DNA of 64,000 nt from Candidatus Rifleibacteriota bacterium (GTDB lineage: Bacteria; Muiribacteriota; Ozemobacteria; Ozemobacterales; Ozemobacteraceae). Shown here in pieces: positions 7,470-42,331 of the stretch (positions are counted from its first letter, which is position 1; every line of letters starts with the position of its first letter). Made by a program: the position numbers and the translations under genes. The notes under the pieces were generated by a model. The model saw only the letters and a list, made by a program, of their open reading frames with translations, was not told where the DNA came from and did no database searches. The DNA lies in the NCBI GenBank assembly GCA_015233155.1, contig JADFYG010000004.1, positions 98,005 through 162,004 of the forward strand. The letters run 5' to 3'.

Positions 7470-8324
7470 TTAATTATTTAAGGGGGCGATTGGATCAAAA
7501 AACGTTATTCTATTATTACTGCTTCGCTGCTCAAGTATTTTCCCTGCCGTTTGCCGATATGAAGCCAGATACTGTGGGTAAACAATATCAAAAAAACTTG
7601 CAATGGCAAGATCTTTGGATGGGCCTGAAATTTGAGCTTTCATGTCCGGAATGTTTTGTTTTACTGTTCGGTTCAGGGTATCAACCAGTTTCAGGTTTAT
7701 CCAGAAAAATTGCTGAGTTGTCCCCTGTGGATCAGAAATGTCATATGGGATGATTTCAAAATACATAACCCGCTCGCTTAGGGTGTGGGAAATAGTGTAG
7801 TTAGTCGATGCATATTTTTGTGCAATCGGATTCGTGGGATTGAATGTTTCTTCCCGAATCAATTTATACAGGGGAAATTCCCCTGAGAATCCTGATATTC
7901 CGGTTTTTTTTTCTAATTTATAAGCAATTCTATTCACCAAACGATACGATGTTTTGGTTTTTGGATCTATACTTTTAGAGATAGCGTCTCTTATTTGTCC
8001 GGATAAAGGAAAAGCCAGCATGGAATATTGAGCACATGGAAAATTCCCGCCGGTTATGTTTAACACGTCTCCGATGAAATATACGGCTTTGTTTGTATCA
8101 TCCCAGCACCAACACGCTTGCTTCAGATCATTCGTGACCTGTTTTAAAATTCTTCTGGCTTCCATGGTGGTATCAATCTGAAGCATTCCCTGGAGCGAGG
8201 AGCGGGTGCCTTGGCGCATGATTTGCCATGTTGGTACAAGAAGTATCAGCATGCAGGCCAAAACGACCATGAGCTCCATGAGAGTAAAGGCCTGGTGTTT
8301 CAAACTACATCCTCGGGCCATCAA
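7470..8324 (-). CDS. prepilin-type N-terminal cleavage/methylation domain protein (GspJ-like)
   Basis: N-terminus KHQAFTLMELMVVLACMLILLVPTW; overlaps the upstream pseudopilin ORF by 20 bp. Confidence 0.85.
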   Translation of the reverse strand: MMARGCSLKHQAFTLMELMVVLACMLILLVPTWQIMRQGTRSSLQGMLQIDTTMEARRILKQVTNDLKQACWCWDDTNKAVYFIGDVLNITGGNFPCAQYSMLAFPLSGQIRDAISKSIDPKTKTSYRLVNRIAYKLEKKTGISGFSGEFPLYKLIREETFNPTNPIAQKYASTNYTISHTLSERVMYFEIIPYDISDPQGTTQQFFWINLKLVDTLNRTVKQNIPDMKAQISGPSKDLAIASFFDIVYPQYLASYRQTAGKILEQRSSNNRITFFDPIAPLNN

Positions 8325-8763
8325 AAATTAAAGCCTCCAGTTTCACTTCATTCCGACGCAACCATGCGTCGGAGCGGCTTCTCTTTACGGGGTGTACGCT
8401 GACCGTCACTCGGCGAGCCTTAATTCCGTTCTGAGTTGTGTCATTTTGTGCAATATTTATTTCACGCTCAAAAAGCTCCGAATCAAAAGGATACTGGTCA
8501 GGAGTGTTTCTCGGCTTAACCACCATGGTTCCGATGGGAAAACGGGTGAGAGGATGATTCGTATAGCTCGTGAGCCATTCATATCCGAATGATCGAAACA
8601 CCTCAATGGGCTCTTTGGCGAGTGAGAAGGCGATAATTTCATAATAGGCATCCATGGATTCACGATTGGAATAAGTGGTCATCCAAAGGAGAGGGAGGAG
8701 AGCAAGGGAAAGCAAAACCATGGATATGAGAAGCTCTGTCAGAGTAAATGCGCGTCGTCTCAT
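8305..8763 (-). CDS. prepilin-type N-terminal cleavage/methylation domain protein (GspI-like)
   Basis: MRRRAFTLTELLISMVLLSLALLPLLW; 4-bp overlap with upstream gene. Confidence 0.85.
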   Translation of the reverse strand: MRRRAFTLTELLISMVLLSLALLPLLWMTTYSNRESMDAYYEIIAFSLAKEPIEVFRSFGYEWLTSYTNHPLTRFPIGTMVVKPRNTPDQYPFDSELFEREINIAQNDTTQNGIKARRVTVSVHPVKRSRSDAWLRRNEVKLEALIFDGPRM

Positions 8764-10736
8764 GTTCCATCCTCCGTAATTCTCTGGAATGTTATCTGAG
8801 GGGCTGGAATAATCTGAAAAAAATCTCCCTCGGAAGAACTTCTATTCAGATCCGGATTATAGGTGATGGTATGTTTGCCATTGGCCCAGTTCTCAAGTTG
8901 AAGATAATCCACAACCAGGCAGCCCTTAAGTTTGAGGGGCTTTGTGACGATGACGTTGCCCTGATCTCCCACTGCCATGATTCCTGCTTCGATCTCCTGG
9001 GTAGTATCGATAGTGATATTCCCTCCGCGGGTATACAAAATGCAAAAATCGTCCGGGGCGGCAGTGGCTTTTTTCTTTATTCCGGAAAGAATTCTGAATC
9101 CATCAGCAATTATGACACCTTTTCCGGAAAACTCAACAGGACCTTGATTCGGTCCCTGGAAAGTAACTTCGTCGAAAACGGTGGTAATTCCGCGAAGATT
9201 GAGCTCGCCTTTCGCTTTATCATACACGGATGATGTTTTAAATATGTCAAAATAATCCATGGTTTTAGATCTAAGCAAACCATGTGCATAAGGACGAAAA
9301 TCAGCATCAAATGGATGCATTCGCCCGCCGTCTTTTCGGAAAAAATCCTGTGGGGATGGATAAGAGTCCTTTTCAGAACCATCCCGTCTTTCGAAATTCT
9401 GTTGTTTTGAAGTGAAAAGAAAATTGTCCTCAAAACGCGAAATCAGCGGCAGGGTCTTTGCTGCATCTCGTTGGTCAATCTGGGCAAGATTCGTCAGGAA
9501 AGTCTTAATATTCGTATTAGAAATAGGATTCTTGGGGATGGGTAGACAAAAAAGCTTATAGGCTGGGTCATTTTTAATTTTGTTTTTATCACTCTGGGAG
9601 ATTTTTCCAACGTTATCGAGATTCAAGTTGAACTTCACAGTGTAGAGAAAACGCTGTCTGATTGCTCCCTCAAGGATAGAAGCCGCATAAGCGGGGTCGC
9701 GGGCCATAATTCCGTTGTCGGAAATCTGAAGAACGCCAGGGTTTGTATTGCACTGAAAACTTTCCAGGGCGTCCTTGACTCCCTCTTTCGTCTTGCTTTC
9801 GTAGTCGCCTTGTGCCCCAGAATATTGTGATTTCCAGATAGGCCCAATTTGGGCTTCAAAAACACCGGTCATTCCCTGAAGATCGTTCTGGAACCCTCTT
9901 AACGATGGGAATAAATTGCAGCAGTCACTAAGGGGGACAGTGTAAATTATTTTCGGGACAAATTTGGGAAATAATTCCTGGTACTGGCTAAAATTTTCCG
10001 CCACGTTAAAAAAGATGGGGCTGTCATTGAGATACTTTTTGATGTCGGTGCCGCCAAAAAATATTTTCCCTCTTTTTTCGACGGGAATCTGGCTTTGATC
10101 ACGGACGACAATCTGGATGTTATCGGCGTTATAGGAGGATTTTATTGGGGTAGAGGTCTGAAATTCTCTCATTCCACATCGAACAAAAAGAGCGTAATCA
10201 AGAAGAAAATTGGTGGCGTAGTAAGGTTTTCTTTTTTGGCTGGTGACCAGTGAAATAATTCTGAAATCATGATGTCTGGTTATTTGACACTGGGCTACTA
10301 TTTTGGTTCTCTGCTTTAAAACTGCCGCCACTGAAATTTGAAACGTCCCGACACCCTCTCCAGGGTAAAGCCTGTTGCCATAGATATCTGAATCACGGAA
10401 ATCGATGATCATAGCGGAGGCGATAAAGCTCAGATCATCGCCGGAATTCGGGGAAAAATCTTCCATGATCGGAAGCTGAAAACTCAATGTTGAATCTTTT
10501 TTGTGCTTAAAAAGGAATTTGAATTTCTCGGAGTTGATATTTTTTGTTTCACTGAAAAATATTGCAAAAGCCTCATCAATGGCTGACTCCGCAATTTGTC
10601 TGACCAGTTCACTTTTCTCAAATCGAAAAGCCATTGCGCCTGCCTGGCGAGACATTTGATGGAACTGGACAGTCAAAACTCCAATTATGATCAAAATAAA
10701 AACGATGAAAGAATAAAGTATAAACCCTTTTCTCAT
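8760..10736 (-). CDS. PilX/GspK-like minor pseudopilin-associated membrane protein
   Basis: N-terminal TM GFILYSFIVFILIIIGVLTVQFHQM, large extracytoplasmic region, operonic with pseudopilins; paralogous to 29993..31453. Confidence 0.6.
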   Translation of the reverse strand: MRKGFILYSFIVFILIIIGVLTVQFHQMSRQAGAMAFRFEKSELVRQIAESAIDEAFAIFFSETKNINSEKFKFLFKHKKDSTLSFQLPIMEDFSPNSGDDLSFIASAMIIDFRDSDIYGNRLYPGEGVGTFQISVAAVLKQRTKIVAQCQITRHHDFRIISLVTSQKRKPYYATNFLLDYALFVRCGMREFQTSTPIKSSYNADNIQIVVRDQSQIPVEKRGKIFFGGTDIKKYLNDSPIFFNVAENFSQYQELFPKFVPKIIYTVPLSDCCNLFPSLRGFQNDLQGMTGVFEAQIGPIWKSQYSGAQGDYESKTKEGVKDALESFQCNTNPGVLQISDNGIMARDPAYAASILEGAIRQRFLYTVKFNLNLDNVGKISQSDKNKIKNDPAYKLFCLPIPKNPISNTNIKTFLTNLAQIDQRDAAKTLPLISRFEDNFLFTSKQQNFERRDGSEKDSYPSPQDFFRKDGGRMHPFDADFRPYAHGLLRSKTMDYFDIFKTSSVYDKAKGELNLRGITTVFDEVTFQGPNQGPVEFSGKGVIIADGFRILSGIKKKATAAPDDFCILYTRGGNITIDTTQEIEAGIMAVGDQGNVIVTKPLKLKGCLVVDYLQLENWANGKHTITYNPDLNRSSSEGDFFQIIPAPQITFQRITEDGT

Positions 10737-22600: not shown

Positions 22601-22908
22601 TCTTCTCCGTCGAAAAGGAATAGACGGATCAATCCCGCGGGATAAGGAGAAAACTTTGTCGCAAGAAGATTGTTAATCTCCGTTGAATCGGTTGCGGAGT
22701 GACCCAGCGTATTCGAAAATACGTCGCGGGCAATTTCCTCGAAAGCATTCGAAGGCTCGACGAGTCGGGCTGTCTCGGAAAGTATTGCGCGCATCCGCTC
22801 ATAGCGTAAATTTGTTTCACGATCAGCGGAAATGCGTGCAATTGTCCATCCGGCAACAATATGCATGAAAATCAGAATAGCGCCGATCAGCGCAGTGCGG
22901 CGGCTCAT
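19690..22908 (-). CDS. HAMP + SpoIIE-type serine phosphatase with large N-terminal membrane sensor region
   Basis: Multiple TMs, HAMP-like segment, GGDYYDARL...LIGDVSGHGVSAALVTAMAKAAF...NAGH...LTDGIPE...DDVTLALL. Confidence 0.92.
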   Translation of the reverse strand: MSRRTALIGAILIFMHIVAGWTIARISADRETNLRYERMRAILSETARLVEPSNAFEEIARDVFSNTLGHSATDSTEINNLLATKFSPYPAGLIRLFLFDGEDRLIWSTEDKNVIGSDSTEAFRFLRRPFFPNNIDKPLEPSNLTAFFRGGDWVNLINRPDRLIPIQQPLEQRWAWWEHVETAASSKRIAGGLLFFRMTNMPLDMILRIRLSMLNKNGIELGALDRIRLENSIELPGLPREALASAAETFFRAPDDIIPIPGGTAIAAASLDHMLLFGRVFPVKPVFPGWTWLVLLYWVPVYFFRFSSESISTHRLSMRAMITLLFVISAGLPFILSIGLWIHLERSRADSITFEVLSDLEKRLINIDLRFPTLLRRLRAEYGNWTRQFELAWSDSQNTSPIEETASPSEAILQMRLGTHLAALIDETRVRELDGLLDTCYIISSAGYLFRETSEIPIEMRRLAILPLAERHSWIEALHDRNGYLDSSRIHLYLNAPPEGIASMQILTNNSYTVKHMARLFSQLGKEIARQFNTWQSITMPDDREKASSLVFDSMLESQGENPVQKLLARTGEFTFIGLSDVGSIYLDIIRYTTQKPAKCERIAPLDNTVSPAHASKNFTEKPRPGTISGSAQFCVLILHQMSTLGRMFFEESLINQKEEESSSNKPRLCALTLSRRPAHDYPDPWLHKEFGDLERRLIPPQTILSEIRQTASGPVLLAAMLCNQVSSFILVGTLPIEVVTERIALLRIRLLGLTIAMGMILLALFWRLRAGMLRPVYALLSGIEAMEAKRFDYAITIETHDEWESIAIAFNEAIMGLEELEVAHIIQQKLLPTKPIDGAGFVFSGRSLMTSQVGGDYYDARLNKNGDLVFLIGDVSGHGVSAALVTAMAKAAFGFFIREGVTQPDELLSRMNDILAKILKRSKMMTCLAGIARSDGEIIIANAGHCYPIMVTPDGHISSLDQITSFPLGFRVNRSFATMSTRLPACSHLVFLTDGIPEAVNNLGEQLGYDHLPEILAKSFHASPEEMMSRITENLRRFTQDAPWQDDVTLALLTHTHGQHPDSSDSDIKKT

Positions 22909-29061: not shown

Positions 29062-29919
29062 ATGAAAAAGTTTTTTAAAGCAAGTCTGTTTATCCTTGTA
29101 ATGTTTTCTGTTTCTATCGCCATGACCGGGTGCAGTTTATCATCCATAATTAAAAAAATTGCCAGTGCCTTGGGGAAAGATCAAGCCACTAATACTGCCA
29201 CTGCGGTCGCAACAGCGACTACCACAGGGACTGCAGTTGTGACGGCTACTTCCACGAGCACTTCAACTGCTACGGGCACCAATGCTTGTATCGTTACGGT
29301 ATATGGCACTTCTACATGTCCCGCATGTGCTGCAACAAGGGATTATTTGAGATCTAAGGGCATTCCTTTCGTCGATAAGGATGTTGGAAGCGATCCAGCC
29401 GCTCAGCAGGAAATGGCCAGCAAGGCTCAGGCAAGTGGTCTTGACCCGAGCGGTGTACCGATTATCGATGTTTGTGGTGATGTGGTGCAGGGCTTCAGTC
29501 AGGCAAATCTTGAACAACTGCTGCAAAAGCACGGTTTGCTGGGCGGTACCGCAACGGCAACCTCTGCAAATACCGTATCCAATACCGGAACCGGGACCGG
29601 AACTCAAACCAACGCATGTACAATAACGATCTATGGCACTTCCTCCTGTCCATGGTGCACGAAAGCCAGGGAATACATGAAGTCAAAGGGCGTTCCTTTT
29701 GCTGACAAGGATGTTGGTCAGGATCAAGCTGCCAACCAGGAAATGGTTCAAAAATTGAAAGCCAAGGGAATTTCTCCGAGCGGTGTTCCGGTCATTGATA
29801 TTTGTGGAGATATGATGGTTGGATATAGCGAGGGACAGATTGACCAATTATTGCAGAAGCACGGTTTCACCTCTGGAGGCTCCGGCGGCGATTCACAGAA
29901 AAACAATCCCGGAAACTAA
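29062..29919 (+). CDS. lipoprotein with two tandem glutaredoxin-like domains
   Basis: Lipobox-like MTGCS; two related domains VYGTSTCPACAATRDYLRSKGIPFVDKDVG and IYGTSSCPWCTKAREYMKSKGVPFADKDVG with SGVPIID/SGVPVID motifs; Thr/Ala/Gly linkers. Confidence 0.9.
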   Translation: MKKFFKASLFILVMFSVSIAMTGCSLSSIIKKIASALGKDQATNTATAVATATTTGTAVVTATSTSTSTATGTNACIVTVYGTSTCPACAATRDYLRSKGIPFVDKDVGSDPAAQQEMASKAQASGLDPSGVPIIDVCGDVVQGFSQANLEQLLQKHGLLGGTATATSANTVSNTGTGTGTQTNACTITIYGTSSCPWCTKAREYMKSKGVPFADKDVGQDQAANQEMVQKLKAKGISPSGVPVIDICGDMMVGYSEGQIDQLLQKHGFTSGGSGGDSQKNNPGN

Positions 29920-29930
29920 TTAAAAGTAAT

Positions 29931-29963
29931 AAAGGAACCCTGTTGAAAAACAGGGTTCCTTTT
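29931..29963 (+). terminator. rho-independent terminator after glutaredoxin lipoprotein gene
   Basis: AAAGGAACCCTGTT-GAAA-AACAGGGTTCCTTT, 14-bp perfect stem. Confidence 0.9.
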
Positions 29964-29992
29964 GTGCCTTTAGCTGTTTATAGAGTTGTGGG

Positions 29993-31453
29993 TTGAATGG
30001 AAACTTGTGGAAAATGAGTGCAAAAACGATCCTTGAGCAGCAGCCGCGTGGATTTGTTTTGCCATTGGTTTTTTGCTTGGTTGGAATCATGTTGGCATTT
30101 GGAGGAGCGTATTTTTTCTCTACACTCCAATCCAAGAATAGTTTTCAGGTTTTTTTTCGCGATGAAGTGAGTAGAATAATCGCAGAAAGCGCTTTAGCCG
30201 AATGGCGCGCTACTTTTATTTCCAAACGCATGAATGATCCGGTTCTGAAGAGTCTGATTCAAAACCCCAAGACGACCTCTTCAGCTGTTGCCATTTCCAG
30301 CGATGATCTTCCAAGAACTAAGGAGCTTGCGACAAAACTATTGGGTGCCGGGCGCTGGGCTCTCAAAGGGAAGGTAAGTGTTCAGAATATAGACAACGAG
30401 TTGATTGAAAATGTTGCGGGGATTAGTAAAAGAGGGGCTTTTGGGAATGAATATCAGGGGACTCTGAAGGTTGATTTCTCCGTTGTCTTAGGACCCGCCA
30501 ATCAATCGGCGTCTTCAAAATCCAGTTTTTCTTTCGAATTTGACATCAAATATACGTGTTTAAGAAGCAAGCCAGCTGACCGCTTGAATCGCGGATATAC
30601 GTCCAATGCACTTAATGACTATGTGTTGTATATCCGGGATGGACAAGTGGAGTTCGCCTCTCCTGCTAACTGGAGTTTGAGAAACACTGACCGGACTCTT
30701 ACACTTGGTCATTCAGATCCAGCCAAGCCAGGAAAGATTTTTTTGGGCGGAGCAGATGCCACAACAGTTGCTGCAGTTGCTGCTTGCGGGAAAATTTTAT
30801 TTTCTGATACTAATGACCATCTTGAATCAAAATTGCCCGATCCGCCCCTTATCGGGAAAACGGGTCCAGTTGGATTTGACCGTTTTCTCCCATTTTCTAC
30901 TCAACTTCTCAGATCATTTACCTTTAAGGATTCGAAGGAATTATTCCATAGTCCTTTTTATGACGGAAGTGTCTTGAAATTAGATGGTATTTTTTTTATT
31001 GAAGATTCAGTAAATGGATTGGTTATTCCTAAAGGTTTGAAATATGAGGGAAAAGGTATTCTCATCTCATATGGGGACATAAAAATAGAGGGAAGTTTCA
31101 AAAAAAAGTCTTCTTCAGATGGGCCTTGCGTTCTATACACATGGGTAGGAAAAATATTCGCCAATGCAGTGGAACAAGGTCGAATAGAAGCTTCCCTGGT
31201 TGCTCTAAAATATAATTATGCTCCCACAAATCCTGATAATACGAAGTCCGCAGTGGACTTTTCGCAAAGAAAAGCGGAGGTATTGGGGAATCTTCTTGCA
31301 GATCGTTTGAATTTGGAATCGATGTCTTCGAATCAGACCAATTCAATTACATATGATAATGAATCTTTTCAGGGCGATGAATTATATACGGTTACCCTGG
31401 GTGGAAGATTAAGAAAAATGGAAGCCATTTTCAGCGACAAGAGTCCGCAATAA
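29993..31453 (+). CDS. PilX/GspK-like minor pseudopilin-associated protein
   Basis: N-terminal TM GFVLPLVFCLVGIMLAFGGAYFFSTL; EGKGILISYGDIKIEGSFKKKSSSDGPCVLYTW aligns with SGKGVIIADGFRILSGIKKKATAAPDDFCILYTR of 8760..10736. Start may be ATG 30014. Confidence 0.6.
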   Translation: MNGNLWKMSAKTILEQQPRGFVLPLVFCLVGIMLAFGGAYFFSTLQSKNSFQVFFRDEVSRIIAESALAEWRATFISKRMNDPVLKSLIQNPKTTSSAVAISSDDLPRTKELATKLLGAGRWALKGKVSVQNIDNELIENVAGISKRGAFGNEYQGTLKVDFSVVLGPANQSASSKSSFSFEFDIKYTCLRSKPADRLNRGYTSNALNDYVLYIRDGQVEFASPANWSLRNTDRTLTLGHSDPAKPGKIFLGGADATTVAAVAACGKILFSDTNDHLESKLPDPPLIGKTGPVGFDRFLPFSTQLLRSFTFKDSKELFHSPFYDGSVLKLDGIFFIEDSVNGLVIPKGLKYEGKGILISYGDIKIEGSFKKKSSSDGPCVLYTWVGKIFANAVEQGRIEASLVALKYNYAPTNPDNTKSAVDFSQRKAEVLGNLLADRLNLESMSSNQTNSITYDNESFQGDELYTVTLGGRLRKMEAIFSDKSPQ

Positions 31454-31488
31454 CGGCATATTTTCAATATTCGGTTGTCGGAGCAAAA

Positions 31489-31950
31489 TTGGAAAGAAGA
31501 TCGGGATTTACTTTATTAGAACTGTTGATTGCAACGATTTTTCTTGTTGTTGCAGTAGTTTCGATGTTTTCTTTTTTTACTTCTTCCAATCGGGGATCGC
31601 TGGACGCTTACCGGGAAGCTATTGCATATTCCCTGGCTCAGGAAGCTCAGGAATGGGTTGCCGGCCTGGGGTATGAAAAATTGGTCGAGATGCAATTAAA
31701 TCCTGCGAATCCACTTGTCACCAGACTTGGATTGGACAACTTTGTAAGCATTGAGTCCGTTCGGTTGGACGATGGTTCATTAGTTAACTACCCAACTGAT
31801 TATCAGCAGTTTGAGAGGAAGATCCAGCTTGTTCATTTTCCGTCTGATAAAATTATCCTGGTCAGGGTTACGGTGCAGCCTAAGACAAAAGCGTTTATAA
31901 GGCGTGGAAGTGTTGTTCTTGAGAAAATAGTCGGAGCGGAATATGACTAA
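31489..31950 (+). CDS. prepilin-type N-terminal cleavage/methylation domain protein (GspI-like)
   Basis: RRSGFTLLELLIATIFLVVAVVSMFSF; TTG start; SNRGSLDAYREAIAYSLAQEAQE aligns with SNRESMDAYYEIIAFSLAKEPIE of 8305..8763. Confidence 0.85.
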   Translation: MERRSGFTLLELLIATIFLVVAVVSMFSFFTSSNRGSLDAYREAIAYSLAQEAQEWVAGLGYEKLVEMQLNPANPLVTRLGLDNFVSIESVRLDDGSLVNYPTDYQQFERKIQLVHFPSDKIILVRVTVQPKTKAFIRRGSVVLEKIVGAEYD

Positions 31951-32560
31951 ATCGGGAACAACTCTGATTGAACTAATGTTCGTAATTGTTATTGCATCAA
32001 TGATCATGATCCCAACCATTGATTTTCTAATATCAAGCCAAAGAACTGCAACAAAAGGATTCGGAAAACTTGAAACGCTCGAAACAACAAGATTTATTCT
32101 CGAGAAAGTTCAGCGGGATTTGAAGGTCTTATGTTCCGAACCCGGTCATGGTTTTATGCCCATTTCAACGACAACATACTCTTTTACATTTCCGGTTTTC
32201 CCATCAGGAACCGGATATGTCGGTGACGATATTCCGGTTAATATTGTCAGCTATATTTTCGATCCGGCAAAAATGACTCTCACCAGAACGATTAAAATTC
32301 ATCCACTTTTAGCTGCTCCAGCACAATCATTTTTTTCTAAAATAGTTGCTACAAATGTTGCATCATTCTCCATTTGCCCCAAAGAAATGTTGAGTATGCG
32401 ATATTACGACATTCAAGTCTTGTGTCAATCAAACAACCCGGCCAGCAAACAGGTCCAGATATTTCTCCGGGCGGCAGTCCGTTCTGATTATGAGGCACGA
32501 TTGGGGCGCTCGCCTTTTCTTGTTACCAATAGGCGGACCAAGCTGAGTTATCCGCCATGA
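31943..32560 (+). CDS. prepilin-type N-terminal domain protein (GspJ-like)
   Basis: MTKSGTTLIELMFVIVIASMIMIPTIDF; paralogous to 7470..8324. Confidence 0.8.
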   Translation: MTKSGTTLIELMFVIVIASMIMIPTIDFLISSQRTATKGFGKLETLETTRFILEKVQRDLKVLCSEPGHGFMPISTTTYSFTFPVFPSGTGYVGDDIPVNIVSYIFDPAKMTLTRTIKIHPLLAAPAQSFFSKIVATNVASFSICPKEMLSMRYYDIQVLCQSNNPASKQVQIFLRAAVRSDYEARLGRSPFLVTNRRTKLSYPP

Positions 32561-33420
32561 ATATCTTTCCGGGAATATATCAACTTTTTTGCTCTTTTCC
32601 AAAATATTATAAAAAATATGTAATTAAAAAAGCCTGCTGGTTGTTGTGTTACGTATTTTTTTTATCACCTCTGACTGCGACGCTATTTGCAACCGAGTTG
32701 CCGAATATTGATTTCACGCCCTTTTTCAATGGATTTTCCGGAGCATTCGTGTTTCTCGATCTTCGGGCGGACAAATATATCCGATATGGTGGTGAGAGGT
32801 GTCAGGAACCCTTGTCGCCATGTTCGACTTTCAAGATTCCGAATTCGATGGTTGGTCTGGAGACTGGGGTTATTTCTGGTCCTGATCATCTTTTTCCCTG
32901 GGATGGAATACAGCGTTCATTTGAAATCTGGAATCGAGATCATACTCTGCGTTCAGCGGTCAAAAATTCGGTTGTCTGGTATTTTCAGCGACTTGCGCAG
33001 ATGGTTGGAGAACGGCGCATGAGTCAATATCTCCGTTTGTTTTCATACGGAAACCAGGATATTTCCGGCGGTTTGACAGTATTCTGGCTCGGAAGTTCGC
33101 TCAAAATTTCGGCGGATGAACAGGTGGCATTCCTGAAAAAGTGGATCCAGCGAAGTTTGCCTGTTTCCATCAAAACAATGGACATAGTCGATAAGATCAC
33201 ATGTCTCGCAAAAACCCCGGAAGGCGAGTTTCACGGCAAAACCGGTTCAAATGTGAAGCAGGGCAAAAGTATACTCGGATGGTTTGTCGGCTATGTGTCC
33301 AGCGGAGCTGATCGGTACATTTTTGCGCTCAATATCGTTTCCGGAAATAATGCGGACGGAAAAACTGCACAAAATATTACTGAAAAAATCCTGCGTGCCC
33401 TGAAGATTCCGATAGATTAA
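32557..33420 (+). CDS. class D (OXA-type) beta-lactamase
   Basis: Signal sequence; PCSTFKIPNSMVGLETG (SxxK), LRSAVKNSVVWYFQRLA (SxV), FSYGNQDISGG (YGN), FWLGSSLKISADEQVAFL, GKTGSN (KTG). Confidence 0.9.
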   Translation: MNIFPGIYQLFCSFPKYYKKYVIKKACWLLCYVFFLSPLTATLFATELPNIDFTPFFNGFSGAFVFLDLRADKYIRYGGERCQEPLSPCSTFKIPNSMVGLETGVISGPDHLFPWDGIQRSFEIWNRDHTLRSAVKNSVVWYFQRLAQMVGERRMSQYLRLFSYGNQDISGGLTVFWLGSSLKISADEQVAFLKKWIQRSLPVSIKTMDIVDKITCLAKTPEGEFHGKTGSNVKQGKSILGWFVGYVSSGADRYIFALNIVSGNNADGKTAQNITEKILRALKIPID

Positions 33421-33425
33421 TACTC

Positions 33426-33482
33426 TGACATAATTTTTCGGACATGAGCGCCGTATCCTCCGTGTCGAAATAAGTTATGTCA
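33426..33482. terminator. imperfect inverted repeat between convergent genes (possible bidirectional terminator)
   Basis: TGACATAATTTTTCGGACATG versus reverse complement TGACATAACTTATTTCGACACG. Confidence 0.45.
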
Positions 33483-33563
33483 TATGAATTAATTTCAATG
33501 CCTCTTTGTGACCACTGATTTCATGATGAAAATATGGTGTGAGGTCTCCATAAATCGCTGAAA

Positions 33564-34655
33564 TTACAGGCGTTTGAGATTGACAAACGTATGATAGCGA
33601 TTGATGCTGGAATTGACCTTGCCTTCGAAAACTGTGCCATCGTCACTGATTGTAGCTTCCAACTGTAGCTGTCCCTTCCAGGATTTCAGATTCAGTTTGT
33701 GGTTTTCGAAGGTGCCGGTCCAGCGGTATTTTGTCTGAAGATCCCATTCTTTCATGCTCAGCATCGATCGCTCCGGAAGATATGTGTCGGCATACATTGT
33801 GATCGAGGTGCCACTTTGCTGGATCTCGACGATAGAATCTTTTCGCAAAATAGCCTTGCTGCTGCCCTTGAACTCTACACGCCAGGCACCGGCAATACTG
33901 GACATGTCTTTCAAAGGCTTGCCAGTCTCCACAGGAGCAGGAGGCGGGATTACAGCGGCAGGCTGAACTGCGGTTGTGGAAATCGCCTGCAAGGTAACAT
34001 CGAAACTGACTGTTTCGCCATCCGGGATCTTGCGCTGTACCTTATATGTCATATAGCCTGGGGCAAAAATGTCGATATCGTACATTCCGCCTGAGCCGAT
34101 AATGACGATTTCATTCACGTTTCCCTTCAGGATACCGTCTATGCGCACTTTGGCTCCCGGGGTTGAGCAGTTAACGAAAACTCCCGCATCCTTTTTCAAA
34201 GTTGTGGAAGTGACAGTCCCGAGCAACGGATGATGTATCTCCAGTATTGGCTCATGTTTTTCGGTAGGTCCAGGCGTGCCTGTAGTCTGTGGCTCTTCGG
34301 GATCGACATCTTCCATGTCGACTGTCACTGGAGCCTCCGGGAGGGGGTCAGATATTTTGGCGGGTGTATCCGCACTCGAATGCTTACTGCTGGTATCCTG
34401 CAAACTCATGGCATCGGAAGCATTTGCCGCACTATTGTTCACTCCAGCTGAATTGCCGGGTGTTTCGCCGTTCGACTCATCCGGTTCTGTTGATGGTTTC
34501 GCGATTTTTTTTGCGTGGTGCTTCTTTTTGGGCGTTTCATCTTTGGCTTTCTCTGCAAAAGACGCAGGTATAAGCACTAAGCTGCATATCAAAGATATAA
34601 TTGCGAAAAGCATAATGCCAACCGGCCTTGGACTTCTGTTAAGATCGAATTTCAT
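33564..34655 (-). CDS. PEGA-domain protein
   Basis: GVFVNCSTPGAKVRIDGILKGNVNEIVIIGSGGMYDIDIFAPGYMTYKVQRKI; ATG at 34655 with AGGGAGGG upstream preferred over ORF-track start 34682. Confidence 0.7.
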   Translation of the reverse strand: MKFDLNRSPRPVGIMLFAIISLICSLVLIPASFAEKAKDETPKKKHHAKKIAKPSTEPDESNGETPGNSAGVNNSAANASDAMSLQDTSSKHSSADTPAKISDPLPEAPVTVDMEDVDPEEPQTTGTPGPTEKHEPILEIHHPLLGTVTSTTLKKDAGVFVNCSTPGAKVRIDGILKGNVNEIVIIGSGGMYDIDIFAPGYMTYKVQRKIPDGETVSFDVTLQAISTTAVQPAAVIPPPAPVETGKPLKDMSSIAGAWRVEFKGSSKAILRKDSIVEIQQSGTSITMYADTYLPERSMLSMKEWDLQTKYRWTGTFENHKLNLKSWKGQLQLEATISDDGTVFEGKVNSSINRYHTFVNLKRL

Positions 34656-34671
34656 TAGTTTTTGCCCTCCC

Positions 34672-37600
34672 TCATAATCCATGACTCAATGACTCTGCTT
34701 GGTCTTCAGTGGGGCTTTCGGAATCATTCGACGAGGCCGATCCATCAGAACCGCTGGAATCCTCGGTTGGCGCGGCAATGCCGTTCCCTGAATCAGTATT
34801 TTCTTCCGAATTATTTGATTCCCCGGCATCACCTGTTGTATTCGAAGATGGTTCCGGGGCAGGCTTGCTGATATCAGCCCCGGATGTGTCCGGATTTTGT
34901 TCGTTTTTCGGCTTTTGGGGCGTTTTTGCTACTGGTTTCTTCGTGTTTGCGGGAGCTTTCTTTTCAAATTTGACCGTCACTTTAAGAAATACTCCGGGTT
35001 TGACGATCTTATACAAGACTTTCGAAGGAAATCCTGGCGCAGAAACCTCTATCCGGAGTTTTTTCCCAGTGCTGCTGATATTAATCGGCTTGTTGGCCAC
35101 ACCTTTTTCATATCCCTCGACTTTTATTGTTGCACCGGGAGTCTTGCACAAGACGATCAGCTTGCCGCTCTTGTTCTCGCCGGGAGTAATGGAAATTGAG
35201 GGTGGATGGGATACATGAGTAATTGAAGGCGTCTGAGGAGCTTGCGAGGTTGCCGGAATCGAAAATGCATCTGGAAGAGTTCGGCAAACACGAAAGCCAT
35301 GGAAAAATTTTTGCGATGTTGGATTTCCGTAATCCCGATGTGCCGATCGGAAAAAACGTCCGGAATCGACTATCGCTCCTCCACGCAGGACGCGATCAGT
35401 AGCGGAGAATGGGCCATGCGGATCCACTTGTGCGTCAGACGTGTAGGGACCATACCAGTCGTTGCACCATTCATCTGTATTTCCGACCATATCGAATATG
35501 TTCCATGCATTTGGCAATTTTTCTCCGACATCATGCAGAACATTTTTAGCATTTTCCTTGAACCAACCATAACGCTGATCAATAGAGTCTCCCCAATAAT
35601 AGTCACTCGATCGGCCAGCGCGGCAGGCGTATTCCCACTCCGCCTCTGTTGGAAGTCGGAACCCATCGGCAGCGAAATCACAGACAGCGGATTCACCCAC
35701 AAGTGTGTAGCATTTCTTCAGACCGATTTTCTCACTGAGTGCGTTGCAGAATATGACTGCTCCGACCCAGCTGATCGGGCCAACTGGTCTTTTGTCACTG
35801 CCTGGTTTGTATGAACTGTGAGGGAAGCCAACTACTTGTTTGAATTGGGAATGCGTGACCTCATGTTTTCCGAATAGCAGGGGTTTCGTTATAGTCACCT
35901 CGTGAGCGGGCTTCTCATCTTTTTCTCCTTTGTCGGCTCCCATGCGGAATGAGCCCGCTGGAATTCTGGCGAATGCCATCAGGATACCTTGTCCCAGATC
36001 GGGGTTGTCGATATCGATCACGGGCTGGACCACTATTGCAGGTGTCGGCACTGGAGATACTGATACTGGGGCAATCGGCGTTATCGACGGCACGGGTGTG
36101 GGAATAGCTGTTGGCACAGGTGTGGGCGCGGCTGTCGGCACAGGTGTTGGCGCTGCTGTCGGCACAGGTGTTGGCGCGGCTGTCGACACAGGTGTTGGCG
36201 CAACTGTCGGCACAGGCGTTGGCGCGGCTGTCGACACAGGTGTTGGTATGGCTGTCGGAACGGGTGTCGATAAGCTTGTCGTTACTGGTTCCGGTTTTAT
36301 CGGGAGGGATGAAGTCACCGCAGGAGTTGATGATGACCCGCGAGGTGAGGATGAATCAGCCGCTTGTGTGATCGTAGAAGATGAGGGCAACTGCTGTGGT
36401 TGTGGAGTTACAGATGGGGAGGGGGATTTCATAAGCATAGTGCCGATTACAATGCTCGTGACAGCTGCTCCGACCACAGCATAGCGTTTCCAATGCGAAC
36501 TTCTGGCTGACGAGACGAGAGTCTGAAGGTCTTTCTGACTGGTGTTGCGCCGTCGTCGCTGGGCTAAAATATTTGCAGATTCGGTTGCAGGATGTTCTTT
36601 CAACCAGTTTTCAAGAAGAGTCGCAAGTTCGATGGCATCGGGGCGTTTTTGGGGATCTTTGTCGAGCAGTTTGTAAACAGTGCCAAGCAGTGAGAAACAT
36701 GGATCACTCGGGTCGAGCGCTACCAGTGGAAGCGTTGCTTCGATTTGCTGGCGAGCGATTGAAAATACCTCGTTCTCGCCATCGGCGGGTCTGAACGGTG
36801 GTTCACCGAAGATCAACTCCCAGAAGATGACACCCACGGAATACATGTCGGATTTTGATGAGATATCCTTCGAGCCGAGGCACTGCTCCGGTGACATGTA
36901 GTGTGGTGTTCCCAAGGTCATGCCCGGTAGTGTCAGGTTCACTGTGCCTTTTGCAATGCCAAAATCGAATATCTTGAGCGTCCCATCCGCTGTCACCATG
37001 GTATTACTTGGTTTGAGATCGCGGTGTATAATGCCTTTCGCGTGACAGGCCTGAAGACCTTCAGCCAGTTGGAGCATCAGCGGGGCGATACGTTCTTTTG
37101 CTGTGGCGAGTGCAGTTTTGAGCTCTGAAAGTAGTGTTCCGTCAAGATATTCCATGACCAGGAATGGTTTTCCAGTTGCCTTATCACGAGAGGAAGCGTA
37201 TATGTCGAGCACGTTGGGGTGTCTTACGCTTGCAAGTGTTTTTCCCTCGCGCAAGAATCGATCGATCTCATTCTTCTCCCGAGCGACATCGGCATGCAGG
37301 ATCTTAATTGCTACGACGCGATCAAGACTGGTGTCGATCGCTCTGTAGACGACTCCCATGCCGCCTTCTCCGATTTTTTTGTCCAGGCGATATATCTCGC
37401 CAAACAGTTTTGTATCAATGTCTTTTCCCGGGCTATCGCTAATCGATGCGATATCTGATGTGCCTGCCGCCGTTGGATCAAGACGCGCCAATTCGGCTCC
37501 GATGATGCGTTTTATCTCCGGAATGTCCGGTCGCTTGTCTGGTTCCTTTTCGAGCATACGTTTCAGCAAGTCAGTAAAGGGCTTCGCCTGTGGATATTCC

Positions 37601-38319
37601 TTCAATTTATCGAGCGGCAGCGGATCGTTGACATGCATTAACATGATCGATAGATAAGGATTCGATGCTTCCCCTGCAATGTCATATGGCGGGTGTCCGG
37701 TGAGGAGTTCCCAGAAAAGCACTCCAATGGAATATATGTCGGACTTCCCAGTCAATTGTTTGCCGCGTCCCTGTTCCGGGGACATATATTGGGGTGTACC
37801 GAGAGAGGTGCCGGCTTGTGTGTGTTTCGTGGACGTCTTGGCAATACCAAAATCGACAATCTTGAGTCGGCTATCCTGCGAGATCAGTACGTTCTCCGGT
37901 TTGAGGTCTCGGTGAATGATGTTTTTCTGGTGGCAGGCCAGGATGCCGTCAAGAAGTTCGAGCATATGTTGCATCATCAAAGCTGGTTTGGTTTTGTACT
38001 CGACAAGTAATTCGTCTATTTTTCTGCCGTGAATAAGTTCCATTGCAAGAAATGGCAGTTTGCTTCCCTCATCAACATCGCTGGCATAGACCTCGACAAC
38101 GCATCTGTGTTTGAGTGTAGCCAGAACACGTCCTTCATTCAAAAAACGCTGAACGGCAATCGCATCCTGTGCGGCATCCGGGGAAAGAAACTTTACGGCC
38201 GTTTCGCGGTCAAGGTTGATATCAAGAGCTTTGAATACCATGCCCATACCGCCCTGTCCGATTTTTGAAATCAGGCGGTAGTGACGTCCAATGATCGAAC
38301 CGAGTTCAAACGCGGCCAT
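34672..38319 (-). CDS. tandem Ser/Thr protein kinase with TM, Pro/Thr repeat stalk, SUMF1/FGE-like and PEGA-like domains
   Basis: Two full kinase domains (IIHRDLKPENVLI/VDFGIAKT and IIHRDLKPSNTMV/FDFGIAKG), TM VVGAAVTSIVIGTMLM, repeat TPVPTAAP, SUMF1-like IPAGSFRMG...GFRLPTEAEWEYACRAG...VLRGGAIVD...GFRVCR, PEGA-like TPGATIKVEGYEKG. Confidence 0.93.
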   Translation of the reverse strand: MAAFELGSIIGRHYRLISKIGQGGMGMVFKALDINLDRETAVKFLSPDAAQDAIAVQRFLNEGRVLATLKHRCVVEVYASDVDEGSKLPFLAMELIHGRKIDELLVEYKTKPALMMQHMLELLDGILACHQKNIIHRDLKPENVLISQDSRLKIVDFGIAKTSTKHTQAGTSLGTPQYMSPEQGRGKQLTGKSDIYSIGVLFWELLTGHPPYDIAGEASNPYLSIMLMHVNDPLPLDKLKEYPQAKPFTDLLKRMLEKEPDKRPDIPEIKRIIGAELARLDPTAAGTSDIASISDSPGKDIDTKLFGEIYRLDKKIGEGGMGVVYRAIDTSLDRVVAIKILHADVAREKNEIDRFLREGKTLASVRHPNVLDIYASSRDKATGKPFLVMEYLDGTLLSELKTALATAKERIAPLMLQLAEGLQACHAKGIIHRDLKPSNTMVTADGTLKIFDFGIAKGTVNLTLPGMTLGTPHYMSPEQCLGSKDISSKSDMYSVGVIFWELIFGEPPFRPADGENEVFSIARQQIEATLPLVALDPSDPCFSLLGTVYKLLDKDPQKRPDAIELATLLENWLKEHPATESANILAQRRRRNTSQKDLQTLVSSARSSHWKRYAVVGAAVTSIVIGTMLMKSPSPSVTPQPQQLPSSSTITQAADSSSPRGSSSTPAVTSSLPIKPEPVTTSLSTPVPTAIPTPVSTAAPTPVPTVAPTPVSTAAPTPVPTAAPTPVPTAAPTPVPTAIPTPVPSITPIAPVSVSPVPTPAIVVQPVIDIDNPDLGQGILMAFARIPAGSFRMGADKGEKDEKPAHEVTITKPLLFGKHEVTHSQFKQVVGFPHSSYKPGSDKRPVGPISWVGAVIFCNALSEKIGLKKCYTLVGESAVCDFAADGFRLPTEAEWEYACRAGRSSDYYWGDSIDQRYGWFKENAKNVLHDVGEKLPNAWNIFDMVGNTDEWCNDWYGPYTSDAQVDPHGPFSATDRVLRGGAIVDSGRFFRSAHRDYGNPTSQKFFHGFRVCRTLPDAFSIPATSQAPQTPSITHVSHPPSISITPGENKSGKLIVLCKTPGATIKVEGYEKGVANKPINISSTGKKLRIEVSAPGFPSKVLYKIVKPGVFLKVTVKFEKKAPANTKKPVAKTPQKPKNEQNPDTSGADISKPAPEPSSNTTGDAGESNNSEENTDSGNGIAAPTEDSSGSDGSASSNDSESPTEDQAESLSHGL
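36085..36285 (-). repeat. 24-bp tandem repeat encoding (TPVPTAAP)n stalk
   Basis: gctgtcggcacaggtgttggcgcg-type unit repeated about 8 times. Confidence 0.8.
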
Positions 38320-38437
38320 TTCTGCCGACGCTCCTCAGACCAGAATATAACTCGCACCCGAAAAATACTGTCATATTTTTTTGTGAATGTTCGAATACTA
38401 GCATAAAACACCTGAAGCGGGAAAGAACCAGCCGGCA

Positions 38438-38533
38438 CCAGGCAAAACGCATTAAAAACTCAGGAATGGTCTATGACGCGGCTCTCTCAGCGGTCGCGTC
38501 TTACCCAAGCTTTTTAATGTTTTACGTGCCTGG
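38438..38533. other. structured inverted-repeat element in divergent intergenic region
   Basis: Outer arms CCAGGCAAAACGCATTAAAAA and (reverse complement) CCAGGCACGTAAAACATTAAAAA; inner GACGCG (38475..38480)/CGCGTC (38495..38500). Confidence 0.4.
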
Positions 38534-38755
38534 GGGTGATGCTTCGGCGCTTATATGATCCTATGGTAATATGAATTTCTATTTTTCTCTTGAATACAAA
38601 ATTGATGGAATGGTATGAAATTCATGAGATGTGCAAAATGGCGACGCTAACTTGGATTATCAGGCGGGCAATTCATATTTTGGTAATATCCGCGGGAACA
38701 ATTTAGAGATTCTTTGGCGTTAATTCATCAAAGTTCGAAATGTGAAAGGAAAAAT

Positions 38756-39640
38756 ATGAAAATTCTCGTTGTTGAAGATGATGATGCCACAAGATTTTTA
38801 TTGCTAAAAATAGTGAAAGACATGGGCCATGAAACGCGGTCAGCCTCAAATGGCGTCGAGGGTTTGAAGGAAGTCACGGCATTTCATCCGGATGTTATTT
38901 TTTCAGACATTAATATGCCTGAAATGGATGGCCTCGAAATGCTGGAAAGAGTCAGAAAAACAGATCCAAATACTTTGGTGATCATAAATTCAACCCTCGA
39001 CTCTCCAAAGTATACGTTGAGAGCTTTACAGTTAAAAGCAAACGACTACGTTATAAAACCTTTTTCGGAAAAAGATATCACCTCAGTCGTGGAAAAATAT
39101 GCAGATATTTTGTCGAATCGAACGCTCGACAGGGAAGTTCTCGGCATGATGTATCGTCGTGATCTGGGCATGAAAATTTCCAACAGACTCGATCTCGTCG
39201 GCAAAATTGTCGATAGGCTCATGCTTGAGACGGATCACGCTATCCCGCTTCAAGACCGGCTTGGGATTCATCTTGGATTGGCTGAAATTCTGGTGAATGC
39301 CATAGAACATGGTAATCTCGGGATTACCTACGAGCAAAAAAGTAAAGCTCTTGAAGATGCTGATAATGGGTGGCACAAGCTTTTTGAGACTCGCAGACAG
39401 AGTCCTCCATATGCTGAACGTTTAGTGGATTTACAGTTCAAGATGGATAAAAAGGCATGCGAATGGCTTATCACGGATCAGGGCACAGGTTTCGATTTGA
39501 AAAAACTCCCTGATTCACGTGATCCGGAAGCTATGTTTGCATTGCATGGGCGTGGGATCGTATTGGCAAGGTTGCAATTTAGTGAAGTGGAATACAATGA
39601 TACGGGTAATCAGGTGCGACTGAAAAAATATCTAGCGTGA
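38756..39640 (+). CDS. response regulator receiver fused to HATPase_c (RsbW-like) domain
   Basis: MKILVVEDDDATRFLLLKI...VIFSDINMPEMDGLEML...NDYVIKPFSEKDI; HLGLAEILVNAIEHGNLGI...DQGTGFDLKKLP...HGRGIVLAR. ATG 38756 with AAAGGA upstream. Confidence 0.9.
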   Translation: MKILVVEDDDATRFLLLKIVKDMGHETRSASNGVEGLKEVTAFHPDVIFSDINMPEMDGLEMLERVRKTDPNTLVIINSTLDSPKYTLRALQLKANDYVIKPFSEKDITSVVEKYADILSNRTLDREVLGMMYRRDLGMKISNRLDLVGKIVDRLMLETDHAIPLQDRLGIHLGLAEILVNAIEHGNLGITYEQKSKALEDADNGWHKLFETRRQSPPYAERLVDLQFKMDKKACEWLITDQGTGFDLKKLPDSRDPEAMFALHGRGIVLARLQFSEVEYNDTGNQVRLKKYLA

Positions 39641-39721
39641 TTATATGGCAATCCGTTTGTGTGTTGGTTCGTTAATGAAAGCGTGATCATGAATCTAATT
39701 ATCAATTCAGGGAGGAAAATT

Positions 39722-42331
39722 ATGATGCAAAGACCAACTCAAGTTGTCAGACCGAAATGTGCTGATACCAAACGAGTGCCCGAACGACACGTTTTTTATC
39801 CGACGATAAGGGCTCACAGGGGTTTAATTGCTATTCTGATTTTCCTCACTATTTGGGCCCCGTCATTTCTTGTCGCACAGCCCTATCCCTCATCTCCTAA
39901 CGGGACAATATCTAATTCCGGTGGCGATGATGGTGACAAAAGTCTTTCACCATATTTTCTTGTGAAGAGTGACGATCCTGCTCTGGATCAGCTTCCGCTC
40001 AAATCTTCCGCGGCCGACGTTAAGATTGCCGGTGTCATAGCGGACATCAATGTCTCACAGGTCTATAAAAATGAGGGTAAGAAGCCTATTGAGGCGATTT
40101 ATGTCTTCCCGGCGTCTACTCGTGCGGCTGTATACGGTCTCAAGATGACGATTGCTGATCGCACCATCGTTGCTGTGATCAAGAAAAAAGAAGAAGCCCG
40201 TCAGGAATATGAGCAGGCCAAGCGTCAAGGCAAGAGTGCCTCGTTGCTCGAACAGGAGAGGCCCAATGTTTTCACTATGAACGTGGCCAACATACTTCCC
40301 GGCGACGAAATCAAGGTCGAGATGAAATACACAGAGCTGCTGGTGCCATCTGAAGGTGTCTACGAGCTCGTGTACCCGACAGTCGTAGGTCCCAGATATA
40401 ATAATCCGGCGACTTCCTCCGATCCGAAAAGGCAGGAAAATTGGGTGGCTAACCCATATCTGAAGGAGGGGGAGGCTCCGAAAACCACCTTTGACATAAA
40501 GGTGGCGCTCTCGGCTGGTCTGCCTATCCAGGAAGCCGTCTGTGAGACCCACAAGGTTAACGTAGCTTATGAAGGCCAGAGTTTCGCTCGCATTACTCTG
40601 GATCCATCCGAAAAATATGGTGGAAATCGTGATTTTATCCTGAAATACCGTTTGGCAGGTGGAAAGGTCGAGTCAGGTTTGTTGTTGACGCAGGGTGACA
40701 AAGAAAACTTTTTCCTCCTGATGGTTCAGCCTCCGAAGCGTGTTGAGCCGAAGCAACTTCCAAAACGCGAATACATCTTTATTGTCGACATATCCGGTTC
40801 CATGCATGGTTTTCCTCTTGAAATTTCCAAAAATCTATTGAAGAGTCTTATCGGCAATCTGAAGCCGACTGATGTCTTCAATGTCCTGCTTTTTGCGGGA
40901 AGCGCCCAGGTTCTTTCTGAAAGCGGTTCTTTGCCAGCGAATGAAGAAAATATCAAAAAAGCCATTGACGTCATTACCAGGCAGGAGGGCGGTGGGGGCA
41001 CAGAACTTCTGCCGGCGCTGCGAAAGGCGCTTGATCTGCCTCGAACGCCGAATACTTCGCGAACAATGATTATTGCGACCGACGGTTTCGTATCTGTAGA
41101 AAACGATGCGTTTGACCTGGTTCGCAAGAATCTTGGTAACGCCAACTTCTTTTCATTCGGTATAGGAACATCGGTCAACCGCCACCTCATGGAGGGGTTA
41201 GCGCGTGCCGGAATGGGTGAACCGTTCATTATCTCGAAGCCCGACCAGGCCGCAGCGCAAGCCGAAAAGTTTCGAAAATATGTTGAAACGCCGGTTTTGA
41301 CAAGTGTCAAGGCTGACTTCGGAGACTTCGATGTCCATGCGGTCGAGCCGCCCGCGATACCTGATGTTCTTGCTGAAAGGCCGGTCATAGTTTTCGGCAA
41401 ATGGAAAGGCAAGACAGAAGGCACAATCACTGTGAGTGGTGTAAGCGGTGAGGGAGAATACAAACAGACCTTTGATGTTGCGTCGACGAAGCCGATGGAG
41501 GAAAATTCCGCGCTGCGTTATCTCTGGGCACGGCATCGTATAGCTGTCCTGTCAGATTTCAACACGTTGCGCAATGATAAAGAGATCGTCGAAGAGGTTA
41601 CGAAACTTGGGCTCGATTATAATCTGCTGACTGCCTACACCTCATTCGTAGCGGTCGACAGCCTGGTTCGTACTCAGCAGCCTTCAACGCAGGTGAAACA
41701 AGCTCTGCCGTTGCCGGAAGGCGTATCCAATCTGGCAGTTGGAGGGGCGGTCATGTCGAAACAGATGGCCCTTTCTTCGTCTGCACCAGGTGGGGCTGCT
41801 CCGGAGATGAGCTTTGATTCATCCCGCTCCATGGAAAAGGAGGAATATGCTCCCTCGGCTGAGTTTAAATCACGTGGAATTTCAGCATCTCCGATGCCGT
41901 CAACTCCACCCCCTCCTCCGCCCCCTATGAAGAAATTCGACAAACCCGCCAGAATCGTCAATGCAACAGTGGCCAATGATAAGAGCGATGCGAAAGCAGC
42001 CGGTGAGAAGGTCACTATCGGCGGGATCATGGCGAGCGGCAAACTTACAGTTGATGCGGTTCGTGCAATATTTGAGAAGAAAATCCAGGAATTAACGGAT
42101 CTGTATAAGAAGACTCGTGCGACGAATCTGAAACTTGCCGGGAAACTGGGTCTGGAACTCAAGATCGCTCCGAATGGTTCGGTGCGAACGGTCAAGATCA
42201 TCACCAACGAAGTGAGTGACAAGGGGTTCGAAAAGGACGTGATAGATCTGGTAAAAGGTATTACCTTTGATAAGCCGGGTAGTTCGGATGATATTGAGAT
42301 AACTGTTGTGTTCACTTTCTCGACAAACTGA
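39722..42331 (+). CDS. VIT and vWA domain protein with C-terminal AgmX/PglI-like domain
   Basis: VIT-like IAGVIADINVSQVYKNEGKKPIEAIYVFPAS, MIDAS EYIFIVDISGSMHG, poly-Pro linker, C-terminal LGLELKIAPNGSVRTVKIITNEVSDKGFEKDVIDLVKGITFD. ATG 39722 preceded by GGAGG. Confidence 0.9.
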   Translation: MMQRPTQVVRPKCADTKRVPERHVFYPTIRAHRGLIAILIFLTIWAPSFLVAQPYPSSPNGTISNSGGDDGDKSLSPYFLVKSDDPALDQLPLKSSAADVKIAGVIADINVSQVYKNEGKKPIEAIYVFPASTRAAVYGLKMTIADRTIVAVIKKKEEARQEYEQAKRQGKSASLLEQERPNVFTMNVANILPGDEIKVEMKYTELLVPSEGVYELVYPTVVGPRYNNPATSSDPKRQENWVANPYLKEGEAPKTTFDIKVALSAGLPIQEAVCETHKVNVAYEGQSFARITLDPSEKYGGNRDFILKYRLAGGKVESGLLLTQGDKENFFLLMVQPPKRVEPKQLPKREYIFIVDISGSMHGFPLEISKNLLKSLIGNLKPTDVFNVLLFAGSAQVLSESGSLPANEENIKKAIDVITRQEGGGGTELLPALRKALDLPRTPNTSRTMIIATDGFVSVENDAFDLVRKNLGNANFFSFGIGTSVNRHLMEGLARAGMGEPFIISKPDQAAAQAEKFRKYVETPVLTSVKADFGDFDVHAVEPPAIPDVLAERPVIVFGKWKGKTEGTITVSGVSGEGEYKQTFDVASTKPMEENSALRYLWARHRIAVLSDFNTLRNDKEIVEEVTKLGLDYNLLTAYTSFVAVDSLVRTQQPSTQVKQALPLPEGVSNLAVGGAVMSKQMALSSSAPGGAAPEMSFDSSRSMEKEEYAPSAEFKSRGISASPMPSTPPPPPPPMKKFDKPARIVNATVANDKSDAKAAGEKVTIGGIMASGKLTVDAVRAIFEKKIQELTDLYKKTRATNLKLAGKLGLELKIAPNGSVRTVKIITNEVSDKGFEKDVIDLVKGITFDKPGSSDDIEITVVFTFSTN

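Follow-up and report, generated by a model that had tools for sequence, protein, structure and literature searches.

In the 64,000-nucleotide stretch of Candidatus Rifleibacteriota DNA analysed here (the window), a gene for a class D beta-lactamase lies immediately downstream of a cassette of pseudopilin-like genes, and its product is probably an exported, intrinsic enzyme whose expression comes from read-through of the cassette and which is not linked to it functionally in any conserved way. The chemistry of class D enzymes is the hydrolysis of beta-lactams, which is the basis for the likely role of this protein in the cell envelope. The features of the region are listed in Table 1.

Table 1. 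Features of the beta-lactamase locus and its surroundings in the window.
Feature	Position	Strand	Basis or remark
Lipoprotein-like gene, two glutaredoxin domains	29062-29919	+	Upstream of the cassette
Terminator-like (intrinsic) inverted repeat	29931-29962	.	Separates the glutaredoxin gene from the cassette
First gene of the cassette, product of 486 aa with a hydrophobic N-terminus	29993-31453	+	Same-family orthologues share 53-63% identity
PilV/GspI-like pseudopilin, 153 aa	31489-31950	+	Weak profile matches
Pseudopilin-like, GspJ position, 205 aa	31943-32560	+	Conserved C-terminal end in relatives
ATGA stop-start overlap	32557-32560	+	Sequence; no GGAG directly upstream
Class D (OXA-type) serine beta-lactamase, 287 aa	32557-33420	+	Profiles, structures, motifs, model
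PEGA-domain gene, convergent	from 33564		Follows the beta-lactamase

Identity of the enzyme

The first-pass annotation had read the gene as encoding a class D beta-lactamase, to be checked against class D profiles, and this assignment holds. The protein is matched by the Pfam Transpeptidase family at 7.4e-35, by the NCBIfam profile bla_class_D_main at 3.6e-70 (236 bits, profile positions 5-235 of 236), and by class D chains from Bacillus in the PDB, from 3.3e-52. In addition, its AlphaFold model (mean pLDDT 88) superimposes on BSU-2, BAT-2, BPU-1, and YbxI with TM-scores of 0.93-0.96, normalised to the target. The curated score of bla_class_D_main is 250 bits, which the protein misses by 14 bits; this cut-off is a naming threshold rather than a biological one, and the product is class D by all comparisons except that one. 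The OXA motifs named in the annotation are all intact: the SxxK motif (S90-T-F-K93, STFK), whose lysine is carboxylatable by sequence, the SxV motif (S138-V-V140), Y164-G-N166, F176-W-L178, where W177 is the equivalent of W154, and K228-T-G230. The WxxG pattern is also present (W242..G245), and the Arg250 of OXA-10 and OXA-48 is replaced by Ala, the residue found in 73 of the 91 aligned rows. The N-terminus carries a hydrophobic export signal preceded by an unusually long n-region, longer than in most relatives, which may reflect the use of the ATGA start. The genome, in an assembly that is 84% complete, holds this one class D gene and four other proteins with a transpeptidase domain, and the locus found no match in an anti-phage library.

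The Bacillus class D proteins (BPU-1, BSU-2, BAT-2, YbxI) are 37% identical to the window protein and share with it a fold (TM about 0.95), the motifs and the Ala at the Arg250 column, while the loop after KTG has 10 residues in the window protein and 8 in Bacillus-type sequences. OXA-10 and OXA-48 have STFK, SxV, YGN, FWL, and KTG in common with it, but differ in having Arg250 and in placing Pro, rather than Trp, after SxV; the window gene, moreover, is not plasmid-borne. Identity is highest, reaching 54% over 241 columns with an Omnitrophota protein (L075), among uncharacterised environmental class D proteins (Omnitrophota, Desulfobacterota, Ignavibacteria, Sporomusa, and others), which share PCSTFK and whose genes stand in other neighbourhoods, none of them with the cassette. 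CDD-1 and CDD-2 of Clostridioides difficile resemble the window enzyme in being encoded by an intrinsic, single chromosomal class D gene, but have no pseudopilin neighbour, and their expression and activity have been measured (PMC6299217). In strain 630, 27 bp separate the class D gene (CDD-2) from a membrane-protein gene upstream; another strain lacks the latter at this place, so that the literature offers an example of a class D gene whose upstream neighbour has changed (PMC6299217).

The cassette and its flanks

The label of GspJ-like that the upstream pseudopilin gene had been given stands as a description of position and likeness, but not of family membership. N-terminal pilin-type methylation motifs are matched in the two smaller cassette proteins at 0.0019 (31489-31950) and 0.0062 (31943-32560), below the Pfam cut-offs; matches of the cassette pseudopilins to PilV/ComGE-like profiles are weak and below the curated cut-off, and no cassette gene reaches the curated cut-off of the type II minor pseudopilin profiles (GspJ, GspI/PilV). 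Names such as GspJ are therefore positional only. The 486-residue protein matched no Pfam or NCBIfam family, and its model is of low confidence (pLDDT 54); in two relatives (G003 and G017, loci L068 and L069) the corresponding protein contains an insert of ~200 residues in its middle.

A lipoprotein-like gene with one or two glutaredoxin domains precedes the cassette in the window and in G013 and G002, the two in the relatives being located at L065 13769-14443 (-) and L066 10554-11420 (-). At L068, L071, L072, L073, and L074, the lipoprotein-like gene lies downstream of the cassette and shows no evident glutaredoxin domain. The window also harbours a second, paralogous cassette on the opposite strand (7470-10736, -), comprising a GspJ-like, a PilV-like, and a large protein, flanked upstream by a FecR-domain gene and downstream by a HEAT-repeat gene. 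On the other side of the beta-lactamase, a PEGA-domain gene is overlapped by 11 nt by a gene (34672-38319, -) whose 1215-residue product combines two Ser/Thr kinase domains, a long Pro/Thr repeat (PTPVPTAA), and an FGE-sulfatase domain.

The stop-start junction

As annotated, the beta-lactamase gene starts inside the stop of the GspJ-like gene, the two overlapping by the 4 nt ATGA. A Shine-Dalgarno-like GGAG precedes the starts at 31489 and 31943, and none is found directly before 32557; a consensus scan of the + strand, which may not fit this phylum, detected no promoter-like site in the ~1.8 kb upstream of the beta-lactamase start. The four-base overlap, the shared strand, and the lack of a Shine-Dalgarno-like sequence of its own make co-expression likely in this genome, and the overlap may well couple translation of the two genes, so that the coupling put forward in the first-pass annotation is probable here.

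Four-base overlaps are not rare in the window, two others being present in its ORF lists (8760-8763 and 22905-22908). In relatives, the pseudopilin ends in FPP or LPP followed by the stop, or by a stop after one further residue, and in the window it ends in SYPP and the stop; this alignment down to the last residues indicates that the window pseudopilin is complete, and that the beta-lactamase gene lies directly behind a natural gene end. The letters ATGA arise automatically because a final Pro codon, CCA, is followed by a TGA stop, and a paralogous cassette (L072) has exactly CCATGA with no beta-lactamase behind it. The overlap thus says nothing on shared function.

Gene neighbourhood in relatives

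A search for the cassette proteins covered all 24 genomes of the taxonomic family, and the loci were then read. At the nine cassette loci with a visible pseudopilin end, in seven genomes of the family, no class D gene lies behind the cassette. In G011, a 617-residue protein encoded ~4 kb past the end of the cassette was weakly similar to the query; it was rejected as not class D, being penicillin-binding-protein-like, with a weak transpeptidase-domain hit. Conversely, of 40 genomes of the phylum that were searched for class D genes, 11 carry one: that of the window, two of the same family (G013 and G005), and eight elsewhere in the phylum. The gene is hence present in 3 of the 24 family genomes; the two same-family proteins are ~40% identical to that of the window and their genes are located elsewhere, not by the cassette, and none of the eight others is next to a cassette. 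With 80 further loci from named public genomes the collection came to 91 class D loci, and at none of these 91 other loci was a relative of the cassette proteins found; a scan for pilin-like N-termini with a crude motif flagged one of the 91 (L141). Genus g1, that of the window, is represented by one genome. When the genome contigs were scanned with the beta-lactamase, exact peptides returned no match and a profile scan returned matches. In another genome of the phylum (G026), a class D domain follows an N-terminal region of ~240 residues of unknown kind (L057 8476-9912). By titles and abstract openings, a literature search yielded no described link between class D genes and pseudopilins.

The first-pass annotation had suggested that the enzyme may be tied to filament or peptidoglycan processes, and had named a lack of synteny in relatives as the observation that could refute this. 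Relatives keep the cassette without the beta-lactamase, and the tie is therefore not borne out; the neighbourhood is most likely incidental.

Origin and likely function

In the 91-row tree, the window protein is placed, with weak support, among environmental sequences that include those of Omnitrophota, and the other two class D proteins of the family branch separately from it. Approximately unbiased (AU) tests did not reject a single clade of the family copies (p-AU 0.32 for the three copies and 0.457 for two), and transfer, although plausible, is therefore not claimed. Transfer or rearrangement in this lineage would have brought the gene right up to the natural end of the conserved pseudopilin cassette, where read-through of the cassette, followed by re-initiation at the ATGA, would probably account for its expression. 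The hydrophobic N-terminal segment seen in the sequence suggests that the protein is exported by Sec; in the envelope, Ser90 as nucleophile and a carboxylated Lys93 as general base would open the beta-lactam ring, which would confer intrinsic tolerance to beta-lactams. The enzyme would act independently of the cassette.

Alternative explanations

The first alternative is that this class D homologue hydrolyses beta-lactams poorly or not at all: in the manner of YbxI, it would be acylated with poor turnover and would serve in penicillin binding or be vestigial. Its nearest solved relatives are Bacillus proteins that include the poorly active YbxI as well as the active BPU-1, and a survey of uncharacterised class D homologues describes YbxI-type proteins as motif-complete yet poor enzymes, and three of ten newly tested homologues as having no detectable activity and not being produced in active form (PMC9045261). 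On the other hand, the catalytic motifs, Trp177 and Lys93 included, are intact, and the same survey reports that seven of the ten homologues hydrolysed a beta-lactam (PMC9045261). Motifs are thus no guarantee, but activity is likely here and a poorly hydrolysing homologue unlikely. That the protein is instead a BlaR/MecR-type beta-lactam sensor domain could be argued from its match to blaR1_generic (2.3e-66) and from its matches to MecR1 sensor structures, BlaR1 and MecR1 sensor domains having the same fold and 34-35% identity to it. This match, however, is confined to the C-terminal sensor part of the profile (352-584 of 585), and the transmembrane and protease region of BlaR1 is absent from a protein of this length with one hydrophobic segment, leaving it without a receptor module. 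Furthermore, Val140 stands where the BlaR1 sensor has Asn, as do 4 of the 91 aligned rows, and this SxV in place of SxN argues against a sensor; no Penicillinase_R (BlaI/MecI-type) repressor was found in the 84% complete genome assembly. A sensor function is barely credible on these grounds.

The remaining alternatives concern the position of the gene. Its patchy occurrence in the family and its lineage-specific location could point to recent acquisition of a mobile, clinical OXA-type resistance gene, but a search of 72,556 plasmids gave no match above 60% identity (best 42.5%, Sporomusa), the protein is about 35-38% identical to the OXA-10 and OXA-48 families, and the GC content of the gene (43%) is in line with that of the cassette (41-43%). 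No mobile-element genes were present among the neighbours scanned (29062-42331), as the annotation had noted in suggesting a chromosomal enzyme. Judged from these sequence comparisons, this is not a mobile clinical OXA gene, and recent acquisition of that sort is highly improbable. The likely co-expression described above would, in turn, be expected if the beta-lactamase worked with the cassette, for example by acting on peptidoglycan within a pilus-like or secretion apparatus. Against such a partnership stand the nine cassette loci and the 91 class D loci where the two do not meet, and the fact that the recurrent partner of the cassette is a lipoprotein-like gene, not a beta-lactamase; it is accordingly considered quite improbable. 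That the class D protein of this lineage has been recruited to a pseudopilus as a co-translated accessory facing the peptidoglycan, and is not a resistance enzyme, is very improbable as well. An intrinsic, exported enzyme that happens to lie behind the cassette is the preferred explanation.

Significance

As this case shows, an overlap of a gene's start with the stop of the preceding gene is, by itself, no evidence of shared function. The phylum of the window is absent from the phyla listed in the available portion of the 2022 survey (PMC9045261), and the class D genes in 11 of the 40 genomes searched extend the environmental reservoir of class D homologues to a phylum with Riflebacteria/Wallbacteria-type genomes.
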